Notes under the pieces: generated by a model | Told to the model about the DNA's origin: nothing | The model's database searches: none | Seen by the model: the letters and a program-made list of their open reading frames with translations, nothing else | Made by a program: the position numbers and the translations under genes | Shown: in pieces, positions 5,636 to 21,338 of the stretch | Layout of the letters: each line of letters opens with the position of its first letter | Numbering within the stretch: position 1 is the stretch's first letter | Source: Microbacterium sp. Clip185 | GTDB lineage: Bacteria; Actinomycetota; Actinomycetes; Actinomycetales; Microbacteriaceae | Assembly (NCBI RefSeq): GCF_028743715.1 | Contig: NZ_CP117996.1 | Coordinates: 2,108,001 to 2,172,000, forward strand | Reading direction: 5' to 3' | DNA length: 64,000 bases

Positions 5636-6127
5636 GTGTCTTCTGACGCAACGGTGAGCTTCCTCACTCAGGACGCCTACGACCGGCTGGTTGCCGAGCT
5701 CGAGCACCTGTCCACGACCGGCCGCGAGGAGATCGCGAAGCGGATCGAGGCGGCTCGTGAAGAGGGCGATCTCAAGGAGAACGGCGGCTACCACGCCGCG
5801 AAGGACGAGCAGGGCAAGCAGGAGGCCCGCATCCGCACGCTGCAGGCGATGCTGAAGAACGCCAAGGTGGGCGAGGCTCCCGAGTCGACCGGTGTGGTCG
5901 AGTCCGGCACCGTGGTGACCGCGATCGTCGCCGGCGGCGAAGAGGTGTTCCTGCTGGGCAACCGCGAGATCGCGGCGGGCAGCGAGCTCGACGTCTACAG
6001 CGAGGCGTCGCCGCTGGGTGCCGCCATCCTGGGCCTGCGCGAGGGCGAGAAGACCTCGTACACCGCCCCCAACGGCCGCGAGATCGCGGTCGAGGTCGTG
6101 AAGGTCGAGACCTACACGGGCCAGTGA
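5636..6127 (+). CDS. greA: Transcription elongation factor GreA
   Basis: 163 aa, the usual length. The N-terminal coiled-coil carries the acidic tip EEGDLKENGGYHAAKDEQG, whose Asp and Glu stimulate RNA polymerase to cleave backtracked transcripts. The C-terminal FKBP-like domain ends with GLREGEKTSYTAPNGR. GTG start with AAGGAG five bases upstream. It converges on ilvA with a 15-bp gap. Confidence 0.96.
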   Translation: MSSDATVSFLTQDAYDRLVAELEHLSTTGREEIAKRIEAAREEGDLKENGGYHAAKDEQGKQEARIRTLQAMLKNAKVGEAPESTGVVESGTVVTAIVAGGEEVFLLGNREIAAGSELDVYSEASPLGAAILGLREGEKTSYTAPNGREIAVEVVKVETYTGQ

Positions 6128-10530: not shown

Positions 10531-11706
10531 TCAGCTCGGCTGCGTGGAAGGCTTTCGCGAGGCGTCGATCTCGAGGAGGACGACGACGCCGATCATGACG
10601 GTCGCGGCGACGATGTACTCGCCGACCGGCAGCAGTCCGGATGCGGCGACGAGCGCGACGCCGCCGAGGATCACCCACCAGATCGTGCGCCGCACGGTTC
10701 CGCGCAGCAGCACGGCCCAGGTGGCGAGCAGGAAGAGCGCGAGCGGCAGGGTCAGGGCGAGGCCGGCAGCGGCGCCTGAGATCTCGGTGGCGCCGGTGAC
10801 GTGATCGATCTCGACCTCGACGCCGGACGAGACGGCGCCGACGGCGGCGAAGAGGAAGTAGTGGAGGTAGCCGAAGACGAAGCCGTCGGAGGTGCTGCGC
10901 AGGCGGGCGGCCTGTTCGCGGGCGAAGTAGATCCACCAGATGGATGCGGTGATGACGACGCCGGATGCGGCGAGGCCGATGAGCTGGCCGGTGTGCTCCC
11001 CCGTGCTGAGCGCGTCGATCATCGCGTTGGCGCTCGCGAGCAGACTCTCGCCGAGAAGGATGAGGGTGAACAGCCCGTAGCGTTCGGCGATGTGGTGCGG
11101 GTGCCACTGTGTGCGCCCGTGCCGCTCCGCCCAGACCGGCACGGCGATCTCGACGAGCATGAGCGCGAAGAACCCGACGAGCTGGGGCGCGCCCTCGGGC
11201 AGGGCGAGGCGGGCCACCCAGAGCACCTGGACGCCGGCGACCCCGATGGCGAAGCGGAGGGCAGTGGGGCGGGATGCCGCATCCGAGATCGCGGCGCGCA
11301 GCCACTGCGCGACCATCGACAGGCGCATGATGACGTAGCCGATGGTGACGATGAGGAAGTCGTCGTGGAGCATCGCCTGTTGCACGCCCGCGGCGAGCAC
11401 GAGCACGCCGCCCATCTGGGCGATGGTCATGACGCGGTAGAGCCAGTCGTCGGTGTCGAACGCGGAGGCGAACCAGGTGAAGTTCATCCACGCCCACCAC
11501 ACGGCGAAGAACACCATCGCGTAGGAGAGGAGCCCGTGGGCAGCCTGCCCCTCGCTGATCAGATGATGCAGCGTGCTGGACGCCTGCGACACCGCCACCA
11601 CGAACACGAGGTCGAACAGCAGCTCGAGCGGACTCGCCACACGGTGGGGCGAACGCGGATCGAGCGCCCGCATCCGGCGCAATCCCGCCCGGGTGGTTGC
11701 GATCAT
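10531..11706 (-). CDS. Low temperature requirement protein A (LtrA) family membrane protein
   Basis: 391 aa with about ten hydrophobic segments. The signature VASPLELLFDLVFVVAVSQ near the N-terminus and HPHHIAERYGLFTLILLGES in the middle are diagnostic of LtrA. The family is named after a Listeria locus needed for growth in the cold; the biochemical role is unknown. The start is placed at the ATG at 11706, after 24 further in-frame codons that lack family similarity; a CACAAT hexamer lies six bases upstream. It is the last core gene before the accessory block. Confidence 0.88.
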   Translation of the reverse strand: MIATTRAGLRRMRALDPRSPHRVASPLELLFDLVFVVAVSQASSTLHHLISEGQAAHGLLSYAMVFFAVWWAWMNFTWFASAFDTDDWLYRVMTIAQMGGVLVLAAGVQQAMLHDDFLIVTIGYVIMRLSMVAQWLRAAISDAASRPTALRFAIGVAGVQVLWVARLALPEGAPQLVGFFALMLVEIAVPVWAERHGRTQWHPHHIAERYGLFTLILLGESLLASANAMIDALSTGEHTGQLIGLAASGVVITASIWWIYFAREQAARLRSTSDGFVFGYLHYFLFAAVGAVSSGVEVEIDHVTGATEISGAAAGLALTLPLALFLLATWAVLLRGTVRRTIWWVILGGVALVAASGLLPVGEYIVAATVMIGVVVLLEIDASRKPSTQPS

Positions 11707-11860
11707 GAGTCGATTGTGGCTGATGTGCCAGGTTCGGTGGATCTCAGGCGTACCCGCTCGCCCGGTGCCTGATCGCATTCCACGGTCAGTGAGCCGGTGC
11801 GGCGATCGCGTGTGCCACTAGTGTCAACAGAAAGCGTGGGGACGCGTAAACAAACTGGGG

Positions 11861-12922
11861 GTGAGCGTGGGCTTCTACGTGCGCACGAGCGTCAAAGCCG
11901 GACCGTTCCGATTCAACATGAGTCGGAGCGGGGTGGGCGTTTCGGTCGGAGTTCCTGGATTCCGAGTAGGAACGGGCCCGCGAGGGAACTACATACGCAC
12001 CGGCCAGCACGGCGTTTTCTACGGGTCGACCCCAAGATCGTCGTCTGTTCACGCGACACCGACCTATCCCCTCGCACAACCGTCGAACGACGTGGTGATG
12101 GAGGACGTCACCGGTGCAACGGTGTCGGAGATCATTCCGTCGGGTCGCGACGATGTTGTCGAGCAACTCAACGCAGCGGGCAGTGCGTTCCGCTGGGGTT
12201 GGCTCACTTTGATTGTGGCCCTCATTCTGGGTGCGGCAACGCTTCCGTGGGGTCTGATCGTCTGGCTGGCGGCCGCGCCTCTTTGTATCTGGTTGTTCCT
12301 CCGTGACGCGGCCAAGCGCAAGGTTGTGTTGTTCTACGACCTGAACGACCTCTCCGCCGCCTGGTACAACAGCATCGTCGATCGTTGGTCGTGGTTCACC
12401 GAGTCTCAGAGGTTGTGGCGCACCGTGTCGTCGGGCGCTGTCACCACGTTGAATCAGCACAAGCGCAACGCTGGCGCAAGCGCACTCATAAGACGCATCC
12501 CAGCCCTTGCTGGGCTCAGCGGCCCGCCGCACCTTGCGTCGAACATCGCCGTTCCGGGCTTCACCGCAGGCAAAGACGGTATCTACTTCCTGCCTGACCG
12601 CATTCTCCTGCGCGACGGCAAGCGGTACACCGATATCTCCTATCGGCAGGCGCAGTTGATGGGGGTTCAGACCCGATTCATCGAAGACGAAGCGGTGCCC
12701 CGCGACTCGCTCGTTGTGGGGGAAACGTGGCGCTACGTGAATAAGAACGGCGGCCCGGATCGGCGGTTCTCGAACAACAGGAAGCTTCCTATCGTTCGTT
12801 ACAGCGAATTGAGGGTCACTAGCGTCCACGGGGTCGACTGGCGCTTGCAGTGTTCGCGGGCAGATGCAGCACCGGCGGTCACAGCGACGCTGGATTCTGC
12901 GCCTCTCGCTGAGCTCGCCTAA
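11861..12922 (+). CDS. DUF4236 domain protein with two membrane segments
   Basis: 353 aa. Residues 1-50 match DUF4236, a Gly/Ser-rich beta repeat (MSVGFYVRTSVKAGPFRFN, SRSGVGVSVGVPGFRVGTGP). After a linker come two hydrophobic stretches at about residues 105-145, then a soluble C-terminal half of unknown type (residues 145-353) with no motif I recognise. GTG start behind a GGGG-rich region. Members are scattered in accessory regions and sometimes lie beside nuclease or defence genes. First gene of the accessory block; base composition is less extreme than in the flanking core genes. Confidence 0.78.
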   Translation: MSVGFYVRTSVKAGPFRFNMSRSGVGVSVGVPGFRVGTGPRGNYIRTGQHGVFYGSTPRSSSVHATPTYPLAQPSNDVVMEDVTGATVSEIIPSGRDDVVEQLNAAGSAFRWGWLTLIVALILGAATLPWGLIVWLAAAPLCIWLFLRDAAKRKVVLFYDLNDLSAAWYNSIVDRWSWFTESQRLWRTVSSGAVTTLNQHKRNAGASALIRRIPALAGLSGPPHLASNIAVPGFTAGKDGIYFLPDRILLRDGKRYTDISYRQAQLMGVQTRFIEDEAVPRDSLVVGETWRYVNKNGGPDRRFSNNRKLPIVRYSELRVTSVHGVDWRLQCSRADAAPAVTATLDSAPLAELA

Positions 12923-13052
12923 CGTCAGGCACGGCTCCACGTACGTCGACAGCCTGGAACACTCCTCATCGCGTCATCGTGTCCTGAGGTCCGGCAGGAT
13001 GTGTATGCGCCCGGATTAGTTCCGGGATTCCGTTGGGGCGGAAGTTGCACGA

Positions 13053-14720
13053 GTGAATGGATCAAGCCACATGGGGATGTTCGACCGACTCTTCCGCAGA
13101 CGCACGCCAGCACCATCGGTGGCCACGTCTCCCCCGCCGCCACCCGCATCGGTGAGGGTCGCTCCTCACTTCGCGATTCTCGATGTAGAGACAACGGGGT
13201 TATCGCCGCACCAGAGTCGAATCGTCGAGATCGCTGTCGTGCGGATCGACGGCGCCGGACAGATCCTAGATGAGTGGTCGACTCGGCTTAACCCAGAGGG
13301 GCCTGTGGGGGCCACTCACATCCACGGCATCACTGAGGCTGACGTGGCAACAGCTCCGCTGTTCCGCGACATCGCAGCCTACTTGACTTCATACATCGCG
13401 GGTATGCCGATTGCGGCGCACAACGCTGCATTCGACCTTGGATTCCTCGGAGCGGAGTTCCAACGGGCAGGCTGGGACGTGCCGCGGCTTCCTTCCTTCT
13501 GCACTCTCAACGGCAGCCGCGAGTATCTGCCGCACCTGGATCGCCGTCGGCTGGCAGATTGCTGCTGGGCAGCAGGCGTTCAACTCGAGAACGCGCACTC
13601 AGCTCTCGGCGACGCGCGTGCCACGGCGCAGCTCCTTGGGTTCTACCTCAACCACGCGGGACGACGTCAGCACCAGACTCTGAGTGCGCTCCGTGACGAA
13701 GCCCAAGCGTTCAGGTGGCCGGCCGGGCCGTCGCGCGCACCTGAGACCTGGTCCGCGCCCGCATCTGTACGAACGCGGAGCGGGTCGCGGCGAGTGACAC
13801 CGCCTCGCCCGAAGCAGCCGCCGCTGCTCCGGCAACTCACCGATGTCAGCTTGCTCGAGGCGGTTGAGGAGGGTGCGCCGGACGGCACGCTCGCGTACCT
13901 CGAGATGCTTCTCGAAGCTCTCGAAGACGGCGCGATTGATGATCAAGAGGCCGCTGACCTCGGCGAGTTGATCCGCTTCTACGAACTCGACGACACCGAC
14001 CTCCACGCTGCCCATCGCGCGTTGGTTCTCGCTGTCGCGCACAAGGCCGTCGACGACGGCGTCGTCTCTCGAGACGAACGCGAAGAGTTGCACGTGCTTT
14101 GCGATGTGCTGGATGTGCCACGCAGCACGGTCGTCGAGCTGATCGCGCACGCCGAAGCAGCACGAGCCTCACGGATGAGCGCGGGTCTTCGGCCGCTTCC
14201 CTCAAATTGGAGCTACGGCGAGCCCCTCCGCGTCGGCGACAAGGTCGCGTTCACCGGTTGTGATGACCGCCAGCGCGAGCGCCTCGAACGGCGCGCGTCC
14301 GATCTTGGAGTGCGCGTCATGGGCAACGTGTCCCGGTTGACCGCGATGCTCGTTACGGACGGGACGATGGATGGCACGAAGCTCGCGAAGGCCAGCGAAG
14401 TCGGAACCCGCATCGTTCATCCCGATACCTTCGAGGTTCTGCTCACGCACCTCCAGCCAGCCGCTCTCCCGCAACAGACGGCGCCTGCGGTAGCGCCTCC
14501 GTCGCACACTGACGTCGCGACTGGCGACGCTGCTGCGACGACGGAAGACAGCGCACCCCTCGCGGTAGCCACGACGGGTGCGCAAGCGACAACCACAGCG
14601 TCACCGAGCGTTGTGCGCGCGTGGGCACTCACCAACGGGCACGCGGTGGGTGTGCGCGGACGTATCTCAGCTGAGGTTTGGAGCGCTTACGCTTCAGCTT
14701 CCGCTCTTCAGGAGCACTGA
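13053..14720 (+). CDS. DEDDh exonuclease fused to TerB-like, BRCT and Lsr2-C-like domains
   Basis: 555 aa. A Pro-rich N-terminus precedes a DnaQ-like 3'-5' exonuclease with all acidic motifs: ExoI FAILDVETTG (Asp44, Glu46), ExoII IAAHNAAFDLGFL and ExoIII with His and Asp in HSALGDARAT. Next is an acidic helical TerB-like region (about 265-345, LEALEDGAIDDQEAADLGEL). A BRCT domain (about 385-465, VGDKVAFTGC) follows. After an Ala/Thr linker the C-terminus VRAWALTNGHAVGVRGRIS matches the DNA-binding end of the nucleoid protein Lsr2. GTG start with GGAAG eight bases upstream; ATGs at 13071 and 13077 are alternatives. Its end overlaps the convergent DUF2075 gene by 27 bp. Confidence 0.85.
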   Translation: MNGSSHMGMFDRLFRRRTPAPSVATSPPPPPASVRVAPHFAILDVETTGLSPHQSRIVEIAVVRIDGAGQILDEWSTRLNPEGPVGATHIHGITEADVATAPLFRDIAAYLTSYIAGMPIAAHNAAFDLGFLGAEFQRAGWDVPRLPSFCTLNGSREYLPHLDRRRLADCCWAAGVQLENAHSALGDARATAQLLGFYLNHAGRRQHQTLSALRDEAQAFRWPAGPSRAPETWSAPASVRTRSGSRRVTPPRPKQPPLLRQLTDVSLLEAVEEGAPDGTLAYLEMLLEALEDGAIDDQEAADLGELIRFYELDDTDLHAAHRALVLAVAHKAVDDGVVSRDEREELHVLCDVLDVPRSTVVELIAHAEAARASRMSAGLRPLPSNWSYGEPLRVGDKVAFTGCDDRQRERLERRASDLGVRVMGNVSRLTAMLVTDGTMDGTKLAKASEVGTRIVHPDTFEVLLTHLQPAALPQQTAPAVAPPSHTDVATGDAAATTEDSAPLAVATTGAQATTTASPSVVRAWALTNGHAVGVRGRISAEVWSAYASASALQEH

Positions 14721-16469
14721 CGCCGAAGGGATGAGGGCGCGGAGATGCTCTCGAAGGGGCTCATCGCACACGTACACGTACGTACCGCGGATGCCGCGCG
14801 TCAGTAGCACGGCGTAGATGTTCTTGACGTACCGCTCGATCTCCGCATCGGTGTAGACGATCCCGCGTTTGTGGTTGTTCTGGAGACCTTTCTTGTCGCG
14901 GTACTCGGAACGGTCGAAGCGAATCCGGCCGGTCTCAGCATCGAAGCGCAGGTCGCGTCCGATGATGACTCCGGCGTAGTTCAGGTCGTAGCCCTGCACA
15001 GTGTGGATGGAGCCCACTTCGTCGAGCGCATCCGGTGACGTGATCCAGTCCTTATCCGCGGAGTTCCACCGCCACCTGTGACCGTCGATGCGAATGTCGA
15101 ACGGACGCTCGCGCAGCGGGATCTGCTTCATCCCCTTCTTCTTAGGATCCGACTCCCAATTCCAGGCATACCCCGCGACGAGCCGAGCCAAGCCCTGCTC
15201 CCGATCGCGCTGACGAACCAACCGCTCCATCGCCCCGATGTCGTCGAAGAGCAAGAACTCGTAGTCGCCCAGATCGGGGCGCTCCGGCACGCGGTCGCCG
15301 AGAACGTCACGGATGTACCGGACGTAGTCCGTCCCCGCTTTGACGCGCATTTGCGTCTTGAGCGGGAAGAAGTGGTGGCTCACTTTCGCTTCGCCGATCA
15401 CCTCGCCCACAACCTCAGGGGGAAGGTCCGCCGGGCGCACACTCTGAGCCGCATCCATGAGCAAGATCGTGTGCTTACTCTGCGCGCGAATCCAGTCGAG
15501 CTGCGTGTACTCGAGGGAGTCCTCGCTGAAGAGTCGTGTGTTGATGTCGGCGAACAACTTGTTCAGCACCCCGGACGATTGGCTGGCGCGTTGATTAAGG
15601 CGGTGCGCTTCGTCCACGACGAGCACGTCGAACTTCTGCGTTGCGTTGCCGACATCCCACGCTGTCAGAACCATCTCGGGCTTCAAGCCAGGCGCCCGCC
15701 CGAAGACCCTCGCAATGGAGGCTCGGAGCGATTGCTGCGGTACCACCATGCCGACTCTGAGATCGGCGAGAAGCTCCGGGTAGCCCTGCGCGAAGAAGTC
15801 GGAGATCGGTCCGCCCTGTTCTGCGTCGTCGACGCCGCGGGATGCCTGGATGTCGCGCAGAGTCTTGATGAGCGAGATCCCGACCACTGTCTTTCCCGTC
15901 CCGGGGTCGCCTGCGACGACAGATGTCGTTGACCGACCGTCCTCGATGTCTTCGAAGAGCGCCTGCAGGATGTCGACGATCGCGCGCTCTTGATCAGGAA
16001 CGAGCGCCTTGAACGGAGAGAGCTTGAAGAAGTCGCTGTTCTCGATGTCTCGGAGCGAGTGACGAAACAGACCCCGAGCCCGGAGTTCCTCGAAGATCTC
16101 ACGGAACCGCAGTTGAAACGAAGGACGGCCCGCATAGTCGGCGTTGCGGTGACCGTCGTTCGCGTTGATCACCGTGTACGCACCGTCGGAGTAGAACCAC
16201 TGGATCAAGAGCGATTCGAGGTCGTAGCAGGCTGATCGGTGGAACGAGTCGTCAAGCAGGATGCGCGCGACCTCAAGGTGTTGCTTCTTCGGATCCCGCT
16301 TGTGCTGGCTCATCCGGAGCAGCGCGTTGCCCGTCTCCCCGACGTAGACGTCGTTCTTGTCGTTGATCGCGTACACCGCGGGCCAGTTGCTCAGCTTGCC
16401 GCTCGGGTCCGGGTAGTCACGGAGAGCAAGCGAGTCGAACGGAAGCTCTTCGATCTCAAAGCTGGTCAT
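14694..16469 (-). CDS. GIY-YIG nuclease domain fused to DUF2075 P-loop ATPase/helicase-like protein
   Basis: 591 aa. The N-terminus has a GIY-YIG fold signature: AVYAINDKNDVYVGET (Tyr33, YVG 42-44), Arg52, a Glu near residue 85 (DLESLL) and Asn in VINANDG, so the nuclease site looks intact. Residues from about 180 form a DUF2075 P-loop ATPase with Walker A GDPGTGKT (187-194), Walker B VLVVDEAHRLN and a late HTVQGYDLNYAGVIIGRD motif as in superfamily I helicases. It overlaps the upstream MazG-like gene by 14 bp, so the two are coupled. This pairing recurs in bacterial accessory regions and suggests nucleic-acid surveillance or phage defence; the substrate is unknown. Confidence 0.87.
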   Translation of the reverse strand: MTSFEIEELPFDSLALRDYPDPSGKLSNWPAVYAINDKNDVYVGETGNALLRMSQHKRDPKKQHLEVARILLDDSFHRSACYDLESLLIQWFYSDGAYTVINANDGHRNADYAGRPSFQLRFREIFEELRARGLFRHSLRDIENSDFFKLSPFKALVPDQERAIVDILQALFEDIEDGRSTTSVVAGDPGTGKTVVGISLIKTLRDIQASRGVDDAEQGGPISDFFAQGYPELLADLRVGMVVPQQSLRASIARVFGRAPGLKPEMVLTAWDVGNATQKFDVLVVDEAHRLNQRASQSSGVLNKLFADINTRLFSEDSLEYTQLDWIRAQSKHTILLMDAAQSVRPADLPPEVVGEVIGEAKVSHHFFPLKTQMRVKAGTDYVRYIRDVLGDRVPERPDLGDYEFLLFDDIGAMERLVRQRDREQGLARLVAGYAWNWESDPKKKGMKQIPLRERPFDIRIDGHRWRWNSADKDWITSPDALDEVGSIHTVQGYDLNYAGVIIGRDLRFDAETGRIRFDRSEYRDKKGLQNNHKRGIVYTDAEIERYVKNIYAVLLTRGIRGTYVYVCDEPLREHLRALIPSASVLLKSGS

Positions 16470-16776
16470 ACTTGGCGCTTCTGCCTCGCGACGTCTCGAC
16501 CGGGTACTTTGCCCGAGTGATCTCGAGCTTCTCGAGGACGATCTCGTCGGGATCCGCCCCCAAGCGATCCGCGAGTTGGTAGCAGTAGGTCAGAACGTCG
16601 GCCAGCTCCATCCGGACGCGCTGCGGGTCGAACTCCGGCGACCATTGGAACTCTTCGAGGAGTTCGGCAGCTTCGATCACGATCGACTTCGCGAGGTTCT
16701 CCGGCGAGTGAAACTGTCCCCAGTCGCGCTCCTCAACGAACGCACGTAGCGCACCCTTGGCATCCTCATCCGTCAC
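16456..16776 (-). CDS. Small MazG-like nucleotide pyrophosphohydrolase
   Basis: 106 aa, a single all-alpha NTP-PPase domain. The metal site is visible as EAAELLEEFQW (ExxE) and ELADVLTYCYQLADRLG (ExxD), and the MazG-like VEERDWGQFHSPENLAKSI leads it. Such enzymes hydrolyse (d)NTPs to monophosphates. It is distinct from the housekeeping MazG at 31 kb. The GTG start has a TAGGCT hexamer six bases upstream. First gene of a two-gene unit with the GIY-YIG/DUF2075 protein. Confidence 0.88.
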   Translation of the reverse strand: MTDEDAKGALRAFVEERDWGQFHSPENLAKSIVIEAAELLEEFQWSPEFDPQRVRMELADVLTYCYQLADRLGADPDEIVLEKLEITRAKYPVETSRGRSAKYDQL

Positions 16777-16782
16777 GCGCTC

Positions 16783-16788
16783 AGCCTA
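16783..16788 (-). promoter_or_regulatory. -10 element of the MazG-like/DUF2075 unit
   Basis: Minus-strand TAGGCT, six bases before the GTG at 16776; leaderless arrangement. Confidence 0.55.
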
Positions 16789-17099
16789 GCGAGCACTCGC
16801 CGCGTCGATTTGAGACGCATCAAGGCCAGACACAACGTGTGCCTGAGAGGCTCATCTCGAAGAAACGACCGCGGCTTCACGAACGGCTCTCGGCTGCTCC
16901 TCGCTCAGCGCACGACCAGGGAACGCCACAGAGCGTTCCACGACTCCGCCGAGCGGACGAGAACAGCGAGGCGACGGTGCACTGGCCCACCGAGCATCAT
17001 AAGCCGCTCGCGCTGCGCAATGCCCGAGTACCTAGGGGCCCCGATCCGACATGGCCAGGACAGGGGGGATCGCTCTATGCGGAGCGGCCAAACTGTCGC

Positions 17100-17105
17100 C
17101 ACAAT
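17100..17105 (+). promoter_or_regulatory. Possible -10 element of the nuclease-helicase pair
   Basis: CACAAT, six bases before the ATG at 17112. Weaker than the TANNNT elements of other genes but with the same spacing; it helps choose the 17112 start. Confidence 0.4.
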
Positions 17106-17111
17106 GAAACA

Positions 17112-17903
17112 ATGGGTCGACTTTTACGCCATCGCAAGTTGAAGCCGCGTCATGGGGGCTATCGCGGACGCGCATGGGAGCCGCGCGACCTCGACGCGCT
17201 CGCTACGGCCGTCGCAGATCTTGCCCTTGGGCAATGGTTGCACGTTGAAGAGTTGCTTCGATCCGAGGAACCGTGGCGGGTTTCAGGCGCTGACTACGCG
17301 ATTGACGGAGCCATTAGCCTGCTGACTGTTCCCGCTGGCAAAGACCCGTGGCATCGCGATGGCTGGGTTTTCCAGTTGGTATCGTGGCTTGCCGCGGTCG
17401 AGGAGAACGACGGTCCCGCCCGAATCCCACAAATGGATCAGGCTTCGAAGGGATTCGACGGACTACAGATTGCAGTCAACAGTAGATCAGGGCAGCCCAA
17501 GCGGATCGTCGTGTTTGAGGATAAAGCGACAAATTCACCGCGAGACACCGTGCGTGATGACGTGTGGAAATCATTCGCTGAACTGGAAACCGGGTCCCGA
17601 AATCCCGCCCTCGCCGCGGAGGTTGGATACCTCCTGTCTCGGATTCCCTTAACCGATCCTCGAAAGACAATCGACCATTTGATGCGCAAGCAGTCTGGTC
17701 GCGCCTACCGAGTCTCGATAACCACGAAAGCGCACCACGCCCGCGCAGAGAGATTCAACGGCCTGTTCGATGGATTCGAGGAAACCGTCCCAGGCAAACG
17801 GAGGCGCCGTCGCGCAAACGTTCTCGAAATCGCAGACCTGAGGCCTTGGATGGACGACCTGTGCGATCGTGCGATCGCAGTCTTGGAGGGCCAACGTGTT
17901 TGA
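17112..17903 (+). CDS. PD-(D/E)XK nuclease, HamA/AbpA (DUF1837)-like
   Basis: 263 aa. The catalytic pattern is clear: Asp116 in KGFDGLQIAV, then RIVVFEDKAT with Glu136 and Lys138, a D-(19)-ExK spacing typical of PD-(D/E)XK nucleases. The hydrophobic WVFQLVSWLAAVEEN helix before it and the following helix resemble DUF1837 (HamA of Hachiman, AbpA of AbpAB). The start is uncertain because the frame is open further upstream; ATG 17112 is preferred because the upstream sequence does not look coding. It overlaps the helicase gene by 8 bp. Family assignment is by pattern only; another nuclease-helicase family remains possible. Confidence 0.75.
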   Translation: MGRLLRHRKLKPRHGGYRGRAWEPRDLDALATAVADLALGQWLHVEELLRSEEPWRVSGADYAIDGAISLLTVPAGKDPWHRDGWVFQLVSWLAAVEENDGPARIPQMDQASKGFDGLQIAVNSRSGQPKRIVVFEDKATNSPRDTVRDDVWKSFAELETGSRNPALAAEVGYLLSRIPLTDPRKTIDHLMRKQSGRAYRVSITTKAHHARAERFNGLFDGFEETVPGKRRRRRANVLEIADLRPWMDDLCDRAIAVLEGQRV

Positions 17904-20900
17904 TAGCGTGACTGCCGCGATCATTGCTGCGGCGCCGCGCTTATCAAACGTGGACGCTGAACGGCTGCCCACGGCGATCACCGACGCATATCTGAAGGTC
18001 ACCATGGCAAGATCACTCGTTCGGAATGATCTAGTCGCCAATGACGAGGTCTTTGGCGAGCTCCGCTCGATCGGCGCCGCCCAGGAAGCGATTGCGCTCA
18101 ATCAGGAGCCCGGAGATGTGCGCGCGTCCGCCGCGTATGTCGCCGCTTCCGCGTACAGAATCCTCGCCGACGCCGACGCGGGGCGACCTAACGACGATCG
18201 CCATCTGACACCGGGCACCGTCGGGCCACGCATCGCATCTATGATGCTCTACCTCGTGGCCGACGCGCCGGCCGACGCTTCCGAGGTTGCTGACGGGATC
18301 GACGGAGTCGAACAGGAGCAATTCTCTGACCTTGTGGCTTCACTGAAACGCCTGGGGAAGGGTGAGATCAATGGTGCGGAAAGCTCAGAAGAACCTTTCC
18401 AACTTGATCTGGACGCCGATCCGTTAACGATCGGCGCTGTCATCGGCTATCGCAAGTGCGCGCGCTCGCTCGCAGATCTGGTGCGGCTCCTCCGAACCCC
18501 AGACCCCGCGGCCGATCCGCTGGCCGGACAATTCGCCTCGATCGCAACAGCGATGTCAATGAGTGTGGACTTCAACATCGGAGACCGCGCCCATGTGTCA
18601 TCAAACCTGATCGCTGGCCCCTGGCATCTGGCGCGGCTTCTTGAGATGGCGAGCCCAGTATTGGTCGCTGCGTCCACCGCGTCACTGCCTGCACCGAGCG
18701 GCATCTCTGCAGAGGACTGGCAGCGCGTTACGGCTCGGACAGCGCGACTTAGACCGCTGCTCTGGCGTAATCATCGCCAGGCTCTAGACGCTGGACTTCT
18801 TGAGCCCGGAGTCTCAGCAGTCCTGGCGTTCCCCACAGGCGCCGGGAAGTCAACGATGTCGGAACTTAAGGTCGGAGCAACAATTCTCCGCGGGCTAAAC
18901 GTCATTTGCCTTGCGCCAACCCTCTCGTTGATTGACCAACTCGCACGATCATTCAAATTGGCGGTCCCGGGTGCACGAGTGCTAGCTCAACGCGACGCGG
19001 ACGAAGAGATCGAATCCGCATCAGATGGTGTCCCTGAGATATTCGTCATGACTCCCGAGAGCTGCCTAGCAGCCCTCGGAACAGATCAGACTCGGTTTGG
19101 GGAAGTCGGCCTCGTCCTGTTCGACGAGGCACACCTCATGCATGTCGAAGGCGATGCACCTAACCGGCGCGCACTAGATGCCTCGCTTTGTTTTCTCACG
19201 CTCGTCTCTCGCTTCGGTGACGCAGATCTGATGCTTGTCTCCGCGATGTTCGCAAACTCTCAGGAACTCGCAGACTGGCTCAAATTCGTTACGGGGCGTC
19301 CTGCTATAGCGTTGGATACCCCTTGGAAGCCAACGAGACAGGCGAGGGGTGCTCTCGTCTATCCGTTACATGAGGTTGAGCGGCTGCGGAAACTTCGAGA
19401 CGAAATGTACCGAACCTCGACGACCGACGGGCCCCCGGCCGCGCTCAAGCAGCAGTTGCTTGCACAGCCACACGGATTCTTCAGTCTTAAGTCGACCTGG
19501 GAGTCGACCCAGACCAGGGACTACCGACTAATGCCGCTGCTCGAGTCTCAAGTGACGCTCGGCGTCAGCGGATCGCGAACGCGGGATCGCGCCTGGCGAT
19601 TGACTGCTAACGCAAACCGCGTAGCTGCAAGGCTCGCTCAAGCCGCTGCTGATGGAGGTCTGAAGACTCTCGTCTTCACCCACCAAGTCGGCTGGACGAG
19701 TTCAATTGCTCGCCTCGTCACCACAGCACAGCCGAATACTACGCCGCTGCTGAGATCTGAGCAGCGACTGCTAGCACGAAGCGTGGAGCTACTTGGCGCG
19801 GAATCTGCACTCTACCTGAAACTCGAGGACGGGGCAGTTGTGGGCAGCGCGATCCCGCATCACGGCTTACTGCTGCCGGACGAGCGGCGTCTTCACGAGC
19901 TACTCTTCCGTCGCCCGGACGGGGTACCCGTTCTAGTGGCTACCTCCACCGTCACACAGGGCATGAACTTTCCGAGTGAGTTCGTAATCATCGCCGGGGA
20001 CCGCCGCTTCGACGCCAGCGCGAACGGGCGAATCCGCCTTGAAGCTCATGAGCTATTGAACGCTGCCGGTCGCGCGGGCCGAGCGGGCTCCCACGCCAAC
20101 GCACTAGTGCTCGCAATCCCCAGCGAGATAGTGGATTACGACGGCGCCACTCGGATCGGCTCCGGCTGGGCTGCGCTTAGAACTGCATTCTCACAAAGCG
20201 ATCAATGTGTAACCGTGCGTGACCCCATCGGCGCATTGCTCGATGCAATGGAGGAAGAGACTGAGCCGCCGTTGCTACGTTACCTTGGGCGGCGAGTCGA
20301 CAGCGTGACCGATCCAGTGATTGGTCCTGGAATGCTACGCCAGAGTTTCGCGGCGTTCTCGGCGAAGACCGCCGGTAAGCCCGATTGGATCGAGCGGCGC
20401 CTGGAGCAGCTGTCCGGCCTCTTTGCTGACGACAGTGTGGAGGACTGGCTTCGCCAGTGTGCCCTCGTTTCCGGGCTTCCGCTCGACGACGTTAGCTATC
20501 TAGCAGACCAGCTCAGCACACAAACCACGACCGAGTGGGATCACATTGGCTGGTCGGAATGGATGCTCGACCTCCTCCGTGATCGGCCATCGATGGTCGT
20601 TGAGGTACTCCGAGTCGGTAGCCGCGCCGCGATGTCAGGCGCACCGGACGATCTTGGAGAGTGGGACACCGACAACCTGATAGACCATGTTCGGGCCTGC
20701 CTTGCGCCATGGATGCGAGGGGCGAACCTCACTCAGATCCAGGAGGTCGGCATAAGCCGCGGATTGGCTCGGGGCGACCAGCATCTAGAGTTTGCAAGAA
20801 AGTTTGTCCTCCGGGTCGTCCCGGATCTCGCCTACCTGTTCACTCTGCCATCACTCGTTCGCTCCGAACAGGCGAAGCTTGGACTAGCCGAGCCACTGCC

Positions 20901-21021
20901 TGACGATCACCCATTGACGACGCTGTCAAGGTGCGTAGAGTTGGGCGTCGACTCCGCTGAGAAGGTACACGTCCTTGAGCTGGCGCCACGAACGACCCGG
21001 GCTCAAGTGCACGGATCCTGA
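17896..21021 (+). CDS. Large SF2 helicase, HamB/AbpB-like partner of the nuclease
   Basis: 1041 aa from the GTG at 17896, which overlaps the nuclease stop (coupled translation). About 300 N-terminal residues carry no motif I know. The helicase core follows: Walker A AFPTGAGKST near residue 315, motif Ia CLAPTLSLIDQ, DEAH box VLFDEAHLMH near 410, then motif V ATSTVTQGMNFPSEFVII and motif VI NAAGRAGRAG near 723, a Ski2-like layout. The C-terminal 300 residues are helical and without known motif. In Hachiman the helicase senses or loads on DNA and controls the HamA nuclease; the same partnership is inferred here. The pair is visibly less GC-rich than the core genes. Confidence 0.82.
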   Translation: MFDSVTAAIIAAAPRLSNVDAERLPTAITDAYLKVTMARSLVRNDLVANDEVFGELRSIGAAQEAIALNQEPGDVRASAAYVAASAYRILADADAGRPNDDRHLTPGTVGPRIASMMLYLVADAPADASEVADGIDGVEQEQFSDLVASLKRLGKGEINGAESSEEPFQLDLDADPLTIGAVIGYRKCARSLADLVRLLRTPDPAADPLAGQFASIATAMSMSVDFNIGDRAHVSSNLIAGPWHLARLLEMASPVLVAASTASLPAPSGISAEDWQRVTARTARLRPLLWRNHRQALDAGLLEPGVSAVLAFPTGAGKSTMSELKVGATILRGLNVICLAPTLSLIDQLARSFKLAVPGARVLAQRDADEEIESASDGVPEIFVMTPESCLAALGTDQTRFGEVGLVLFDEAHLMHVEGDAPNRRALDASLCFLTLVSRFGDADLMLVSAMFANSQELADWLKFVTGRPAIALDTPWKPTRQARGALVYPLHEVERLRKLRDEMYRTSTTDGPPAALKQQLLAQPHGFFSLKSTWESTQTRDYRLMPLLESQVTLGVSGSRTRDRAWRLTANANRVAARLAQAAADGGLKTLVFTHQVGWTSSIARLVTTAQPNTTPLLRSEQRLLARSVELLGAESALYLKLEDGAVVGSAIPHHGLLLPDERRLHELLFRRPDGVPVLVATSTVTQGMNFPSEFVIIAGDRRFDASANGRIRLEAHELLNAAGRAGRAGSHANALVLAIPSEIVDYDGATRIGSGWAALRTAFSQSDQCVTVRDPIGALLDAMEEETEPPLLRYLGRRVDSVTDPVIGPGMLRQSFAAFSAKTAGKPDWIERRLEQLSGLFADDSVEDWLRQCALVSGLPLDDVSYLADQLSTQTTTEWDHIGWSEWMLDLLRDRPSMVVEVLRVGSRAAMSGAPDDLGEWDTDNLIDHVRACLAPWMRGANLTQIQEVGISRGLARGDQHLEFARKFVLRVVPDLAYLFTLPSLVRSEQAKLGLAEPLPDDHPLTTLSRCVELGVDSAEKVHVLELAPRTTRAQVHGS

Positions 21022-21265
21022 GCTCAGGATTGCGTGAGGACCGAGCGATGATCTGCCCGGCAGGTGTGGAAGATACCCACACTGAACATTGGCGGCGCCT
21101 GCATGGACACAGAGCCCGGTCAGCGAAATGCCCAACGAGCAAGTCGCTATACCTCGGCTGGCAAGCGATCACCATCGTCGTGAGTTTTACCTGTCGAGCT
21201 TCCCTCAGGCCCTTCGTCTGGTGAAACTCAAGCGCCAACGAGGTCTGGTTCACCACGACCACTCG

Positions 21266-21338
21266 TGCCCCCACTGGGACTCGAACCCAGACTGAAGCGA
21301 TTTTAAGTCGCCTGCCTCTGCCATTGGGCTATGGGGGC
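21266..21338 (-). tRNA. tRNA with anticodon UAA (Leu codon UUA), short variable loop
   Basis: 73 nt and a complete cloverleaf: acceptor GCCCCCA/TGGGGGC, D-loop with GG, anticodon stem GGCGA/TCGCT, loop CTTAAAA giving anticodon TAA, T-arm CTGGG-TTCGAGT-CCCAG, discriminator A. CCA is not encoded. The variable loop is only five bases (TCAGT), whereas leucine tRNAs normally have a long variable arm. Discriminator A73 agrees with leucine. It lies on the minus strand downstream of ndh, and its 3' end faces the accessory block, a usual side for island integration. Confidence 0.9.

Follow-up and report, generated by a model that had tools for sequence, protein, structure and literature searches.

The stretch analysed here (the window) comprises 64,000 nucleotides of the 3.3-Mb single-contig genome of Microbacterium sp. 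Clip185 (NZ_CP117996.1, positions 2,108,001 to 2,172,000). Between ltrA and a tRNA-Leu(TAA) gene it carries a block of six genes, A to F, which is probably a composite anti-phage defence island, assembled stepwise on the 3' side of the tRNA, with a Hachiman-like nuclease-helicase pair (E-F) and two further predicted modules, C-D and B. The defence-island reading is well supported by sequence comparison. For a stronger, joint claim the chances appear about even: that Actinobacteria possess in C-D an anti-phage system of two genes not described before, in which the nuclease-helicase fusion would sense and cut phage nucleic acid while the translationally coupled MazG enzyme depletes or cleans the nucleotide pool, and that E-F represents a deep Hachiman branch of its own, found in Actinobacteria and Proteobacteria and invisible to the HamA models tested. 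The features are, by position in the window:

11861-21264: island block, 9.5 kb, between ltrA and tRNA-Leu(TAA), six genes A-F
11861-12922 (+): gene A, DUF4236 protein, 353 amino acids (aa); PF14020, 1.1e-11
13053-14720 (+): gene B, DEDDh exonuclease-BRCT-Lsr2 protein, 555 aa; PF00929 (1.4e-26), PF00533, PF23359
14694-16469 (-): gene C, GIY-YIG nuclease and Schlafen-group-3 (DUF2075) helicase, 591 aa; PF09848, 228 bits
16456-16776 (-): gene D, MazG-like nucleoside triphosphate (NTP) pyrophosphohydrolase, 106 aa; PF12643, 4.9e-18; overlaps the start of C
17112-17903 (+): gene E, predicted PD-(D/E)XK nuclease with HamA-like predicted fold, 263 aa; from residues and fold model
17896-21021 (+): gene F, Ski2-like superfamily 2 (SF2) helicase, HamB-like, 1041 aa; start GTG 17896, open reading frame (ORF) opening at 17869
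16795-21262: segment differing from G135, the nearest relative (blastn); here E-F (4.5 kb), in G135 1.7 kb with an unrelated 494-aa ORF
21265-21338 (-): tRNA-Leu(TAA), by ARAGORN; the island's right edge is at the tRNA 3' end (21265)
10531-11778: ltrA, adjoining the island

Results

An added block at the 3' end of tRNA-Leu(TAA)

The block (11861-21264) had a G+C content of 61.8%, the rest of the window 70.2%, and none of 358 stretches of the same length elsewhere in the window was as low (range 68.9-72.7%). At third codon positions, genes A-F had 62-81% G+C and five measured flanking genes 88-93%. We compared the site, over 14-19 kb spanning ndh, tRNA-Leu and lemA, in 18 of 22 genus relatives (G002, G005, G016 and G022 were left out). 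Neither A-F nor ltrA was detected there in any of the 18 (tblastn, E ≤ 1e-6). The gap between the tRNA and lemA measured 78-133 bp in four of them and 1.0 kb in one; the other 13 held 2.7-5.8 kb of tRNA-lemA DNA with 70-73% G+C (L092 measured from ndh), which often codes for a racemase-like and FAD (flavin adenine dinucleotide)-oxidase-like pair, as judged by eye without a family search. At the 4.4-kb locus L022 of G016, lemA lay about 85 bp from the tRNA. Because relatives have near-empty or differently filled sites, the site is variable and the island an addition.

The nearest relative, G135 (ndh 99% identical), was colinear at 93% DNA identity over lemA-ltrA-A-B-C-D, from window position 6001, where the comparison started, to 16794. 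Identity restarted at 21263, two bases short of the tRNA 3' end, which is one breakpoint of the difference (blastn). The order A-D, being common to both genomes, was probably present in their common ancestor, and since E-F was swapped between two close relatives, the modules were not acquired together. The island has been rearranged recently, and the two genomes present a single tRNA cassette slot with two fillings.

A preliminary description of this stretch, made from the letters alone, had placed a DEDDh exonuclease fusion, a GIY-YIG/DUF2075 protein with a MazG-like partner and a PD-(D/E)XK nuclease with an SF2 helicase at a locus bounded by housekeeping genes and the 3' side of a tRNA, for which variability between relatives would count as support. 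Domain searches and ORFs located all three where it had them, and a sixth gene, the DUF4236 gene (11861-12922), also belongs to the block. The tRNA boundary and the variability were borne out by the comparisons above; the fixed gene order and core-like composition that would have spoken against an island were found neither in the relatives nor in the G+C content.

In G135 the 494-aa ORF (L100:2302-3786) adjoins the tRNA in place of E-F and shows several membrane segments by eye. It had no Pfam match at E ≤ 0.01 and no PADLOC match at E ≤ 1, and is possibly another candidate defence gene. In four relatives (L086, L091, L092, L093) the orientation of tRNA-Leu(TAA) relative to ndh was reversed; this neighbourhood has therefore undergone more than one rearrangement. 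The ltrA gene, whose G+C content of 68.8% was near core level, was likewise missing from the site in all 18 relatives and may represent an earlier acquisition.

The E-F pair

Gene E most likely starts at ATG 17112, within a longer ORF opening at 16839 that was used for the Pfam, PADLOC and phage-family searches. It had no Pfam, PADLOC or PDB sequence match (PDB tried singly and as a profile), and its nuclease motif was visible only after alignment: D116 and E136-x-K138 were invariant in 59 aligned sequences (56 of 120 listed relatives, from 344 found, plus three loci). The residue before E136 was F in at least 90% of these and S in some, not G. When the predicted fold of E was compared by VIA-align, HamA alone stood far above other nucleases. 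E was found in one of 149 genus genomes, a rare and patchy distribution, and had no match in 50,697 phage records (E ≤ 1e-5).

For gene F, GTG 17896 is the most likely start: it is preceded by GGAGG, and several relatives start 'MFD' there. With this start, F shares 8 bp with the end of E, and F adjoined E in 26 of 28 loci. The overlaps of D with C and of the likely F start with the E stop codon suggest that C-D and E-F are two coupled operons. Among PADLOC models, F matched HamB best (1.2e-26), then PDC-M23B (5.3e-23), both partially and HamB mainly over the helicase core; against HamB in the PDB the sequence gave 4.7e-11. A structural model of F, built on 16 sequences (the window's own F and those of 15 of 26 loci), retrieved HamB first by Foldseek (6.8e-21, 1.7e-20 and 3.4e-18). 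By VIA-align, HamB aligned 860-873 residues of F, starting at residue 21, and the Hel308, Pol-theta and Brr2 rows 548-625 residues, starting at 264-277. The span 266-1050 comprises 785 residues, so HamB must also align with at least 75 residues of F that precede position 266. The model was mostly helical over 13-294, and the stretch before 266 may correspond to the NAH region of HamB, which the accessible part of Tuck et al. (PMC12278908) describes as a helical region that HamB proteins share, that related Ski2 helicases lack and that binds HamA.

The neighbours of E-F elsewhere often resembled defence genes. At E ≤ 1e-10 (1e-25 for the C-D and control sets below), a scan of 101 of the 115 listed ORFs from 23 loci gave 140 matching PADLOC models; the 25 listed, each matched by one protein, include type IIG, type I and type III restriction, HamA/HamB, GajB, OloA/OloB, SoFic, PDC-S02 and PDC-S71. 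These scans count families and not proteins, as related models match the same protein; the type IIG and type I models, for example, match one same L052 protein. Scanned singly, neighbours included a type IIG enzyme (L052), PDC-S02 and an MzaB-like protein (L053), type III restriction (L060) and OloB (L072). In Afipia sp. 1NLS2 (L066:6088-14045) a complete canonical HamA-HamB pair stands just before E-F, so that Hachiman-type systems lie in tandem. On the conjugative plasmid pBIND01 (NC_010580.1; L128), E-F adjoins a gene matching the PADLOC Argonaute-associated restriction endonuclease (3.8e-173); the next 4 kb include an annotated NTP pyrophosphohydrolase gene and one encoding a TIR-domain protein. 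In Devosia (L074:6401-9859) a 1152-aa NERD-domain protein with no PADLOC match lies just before E-F.

The C-D pair

Y-YxG, R, H, E and N are the catalytic residues of GIY-YIG nucleases. In C the GIY-YIG match to Pfam fell below the cut-off (17.5 vs 22.6 bits), and residues Y33, Y42, G44, R52, H56, E85 and N102 were kept in at least 97% of 121 sequences; PF01541 was among the precomputed domains of seven of the 120 relatives listed. Conservation extended to the Walker A and B motifs in the helicase part. One alignment of C comprised 29 of these 120 relatives (4335 found) and C itself. In D, E35xxE38...E57xxD60, the ExxE...ExxD metal-binding motif of MazG, was kept in at least 95% of 21 rows (with our D counted twice). 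The closest named relatives of C, as of E, were from Microbacterium among the matches listed. C gave only partial PADLOC matches, the best two being PDC-S41 (1.6e-10) and PDC-S14 (4.2e-8), and was rejected as a known PADLOC system on that ground. Searched against the PDB, C gave Orc1 at E 0.01 by sequence and, as a profile, nothing beyond weak ATPase-type matches (best E 0.019).

Full-length C was present in 35 of the 149 genus genomes; in four of these a single stop codon interrupts the matched frame. Five further genomes had fragments or weak matches. Phylum-wide, it occurred in three of 296 genomes, our own included (E ≤ 1e-60). D stood directly before C in all 24 genomes checked, our own included (22 of the 35 and two others from the phylum sample), even in one whose C is only 34% identical. 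The matched D and C stretches overlapped in 14 of 20 loci, by 11 nt in 12 of them; in the other six, the tblastn match may be cut short. Neighbouring ORFs were mostly confined to single loci, a few being common to up to five of 18. The 102 ORFs next to C-D in 18 genomes matched 88 PADLOC families, whereas 102 control ORFs taken from around ndh in 17 of the 18 relatives matched one; the control shares its genus with the C-D set and differs in taxa from the E-F set. Among the 25 listed of the 88 families are type II methylases, type IV restriction, MzaC, PD-Lambda-1 and PDC-S37. Guilt by association with defence genes is strong for C-D. The literature searched, one library without most subscription papers or bioRxiv, held no description of GIY-YIG, DUF2075/Schlafen and MazG as one system, nor the term 'Hachiman-like' or the name PDC-S48; papers joining MazG, GIY-YIG and defence were, in the parts accessible, about phages or ICP1/PLE.

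Genes A and B

B carries its Lsr2 DNA-binding domain at the C-terminus and matched PADLOC PDC-S48 over nearly the full length (5.3e-133, 442 bits; B residues 38-467, model 4-408 of 411). It lies tail to tail with C, their 3' ends overlapping by 27 bp. The C-terminal part of A resembles the phage family phrog_17982 (2.3e-37), a family of unknown function. B was found in five of the 149 genus genomes (E ≤ 1e-60) and A in three (E ≤ 1e-20). A, B and C each occur without the others in some of these genomes, which speaks for separate modules.

Discussion

The preliminary description had spoken of a multi-system defence island. Its defence-like content stood up, with B matching PDC-S48, E-F carrying HamA/HamB predicted folds and C-D neighboured by defence genes; the modules were not acquired together. 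PADLOC models recovered B nearly full-length, F and C in parts and E not at all. The likeness of the nuclease-helicase pair to Hachiman had escaped it.

In E. coli HamAB, according to the accessible part of PMC12278908, HamB holds HamA silent until 3' ends or damage, together with ATP, free the nuclease, which degrades cell and phage DNA. Transferred by fold and layout, the HamB-like helicase F would hold the HamA-like nuclease E silent while moving on DNA; on meeting 3' single-stranded ends or other damage of infection, it would release or switch on E by means of ATP, and freed E would degrade the DNA of cell and phage. C-D would be a second, independent module, in which the Schlafen-type helicase may bind an abnormal nucleic-acid structure for the GIY-YIG domain to cut, and the coupled MazG enzyme D may lower or sanitise nucleoside triphosphates. 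As a third candidate, B could be an exonuclease aimed at DNA by its BRCT and Lsr2 domains.

The odds for the Hachiman-like reading of E-F rest mainly on the predicted fold of E and on the layout, and several observations weigh against it. No protein among the 59 of the E family matched PF08878 (DUF1837) at E ≤ 1, and the PADLOC HamA model matched neither E of the window (E ≤ 0.1) nor the relatives from L052, L066 and pBIND01 or P0014 (E ≤ 1). E-F was therefore rejected as Hachiman outright. This sequence test is itself weak: a profile of 35 true DUF1837 proteins (35 of 120 listed, 455 found) also missed HamA 8vx9_A (E 1.2), and P0014 is named 'DUF1837 domain-containing' by UniRef. A profile-profile comparison of E with one DUF1837 family was weak as well (probability 2.6%, p 0.018), with D and ExK in register. 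The HamA match appeared only in the second look by VIA-align; Foldseek alone gave a best E of 0.35, and the 50 rows shown, of 290, did not include HamA. The model of F reached a middling predicted local distance difference test score (pLDDT) of 77, lowest at the N-terminus, and in PDB searches by sequence, also as a profile, F ranked Slh1, Brr2 and Ski2 above HamB. In VIA-align Z score, Hel308 (25.2) ties with HamB (24.7), and an early start, at residue 44, is seen in one Mtr4 row as well; the VIA-align ranges give first and last aligned residue only, and the part of F before residue 266 is barely tested by this comparison. Two of the 28 loci had a truncated E and no F, the F match was in two pieces in L053, L062 and L079, and a contig end cuts F in L073. 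Of 16 E-F neighbours scanned singly, six had no PADLOC match (E ≤ 1e-5) and three weak or partial ones. As for the island itself, no word of 10 nt or more from the tRNA stretch recurred at 6000-30000 on either strand, which upholds the preliminary description in finding no att repeat; the best ungapped matches of the tRNA stretch over the same range were at background level. No integrase was present among the six island genes; the remainder of the window was not searched for one.

E-F could instead be a DNA-repair or plasmid-maintenance pair, in which F repairs forks like Hel308 or Pol-theta and E trims ends. Both helicases match the core of F about as well as HamB does, one E-F pair resides on the conjugative plasmid pBIND01, and DNA-damage sensing is, in the accessible part of PMC12278908, a component of Hachiman's own mechanism. 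We nevertheless consider this unlikely, as HamB extends over 860-873 residues of F where Hel308, Pol-theta and Brr2 cover 548-625, as HamA alone stands out in the predicted fold of E, and as a rare, patchy gene with neighbours often from defence is unlike housekeeping repair. A degraded mobile element, the remnant of a prophage or integrative island whose genes served the element, for instance in rival exclusion or replication, would explain the sharp boundary at the tRNA 3' end, the low G+C and the phage-family likeness of the C-terminal part of A. The missing att repeat, the lack of any phage structural family among the matches of the six genes, the lack of E from the phage records and the recurrence of the modules apart in other genomes make it rather improbable.

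That the genes are ordinary DNA-metabolism genes of drifted composition is hardly credible. Housekeeping, too, makes use of exonuclease, helicase and MazG domains; of the 149 genus genomes, however, 35 carry C, five B, three A and one E, and this absence from most relatives already contradicts it, as do the near-empty sites and the 88 neighbour families next to C-D against one in the control. We thus favour a composite defence island with a Hachiman-like pair. Defence islands at tRNA genes are ordinary; a Hachiman-like lineage unseen by the HamA models tested and the C-D pair are less so. If E-F is Hachiman by another sequence, surveys built on DUF1837 or HamA models undercount this system, and E offers a second, independent test of how a helicase holds and frees its effector. 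Schlafen helicases are antiviral in animals. If C-D is protective, a small, clonable operon would link a bacterial relative of these helicases with a nuclease and an enzyme that removes nucleotides.

Comparison with known systems

With Hachiman, E-F shares two adjacent genes, a PD-(D/E)XK nuclease with HamA-like predicted fold followed by a Ski2-like SF2 helicase, the D and E-x-K residues, occurrence in defence islands and possibly, by the model, a helical N-terminal region of F. The locus layout, the predicted HamA fold and the helicase type of Hachiman were thus found, and a match to the HamA sequence models was not. E differs in going unmatched by PF08878/DUF1837 and by PADLOC HamA in those tested, and in having F or S before its E-x-K where the HamA catalytic motif reads D-GEXK (accessible part of PMC12799240). 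F differs in matching HamB models in parts only, and true HamAB adjoins E-F in Afipia (L066), so both coexist. Compared with AbpAB, a proposed Hachiman variant, E lacks the extra N-terminal nuclease domain and keeps the D and E-x-K residues, which are reportedly lost from the HamA part of AbpA (both from the accessible part of PMC12278908).

F partly resembles PDC-M23B; since no PADLOC model matched E or four relatives, the two-gene system PDC-M23 was not recovered. Residues typical of Schlafen group 3 helicases, GIY-YIG nucleases and MazG are conserved in C and D, and unlike C-D, no described system in the literature searched joins all three. B resembles the phage defence candidate PDC-S48, of which it matches nearly the whole model and to which it adds the Lsr2 domain.

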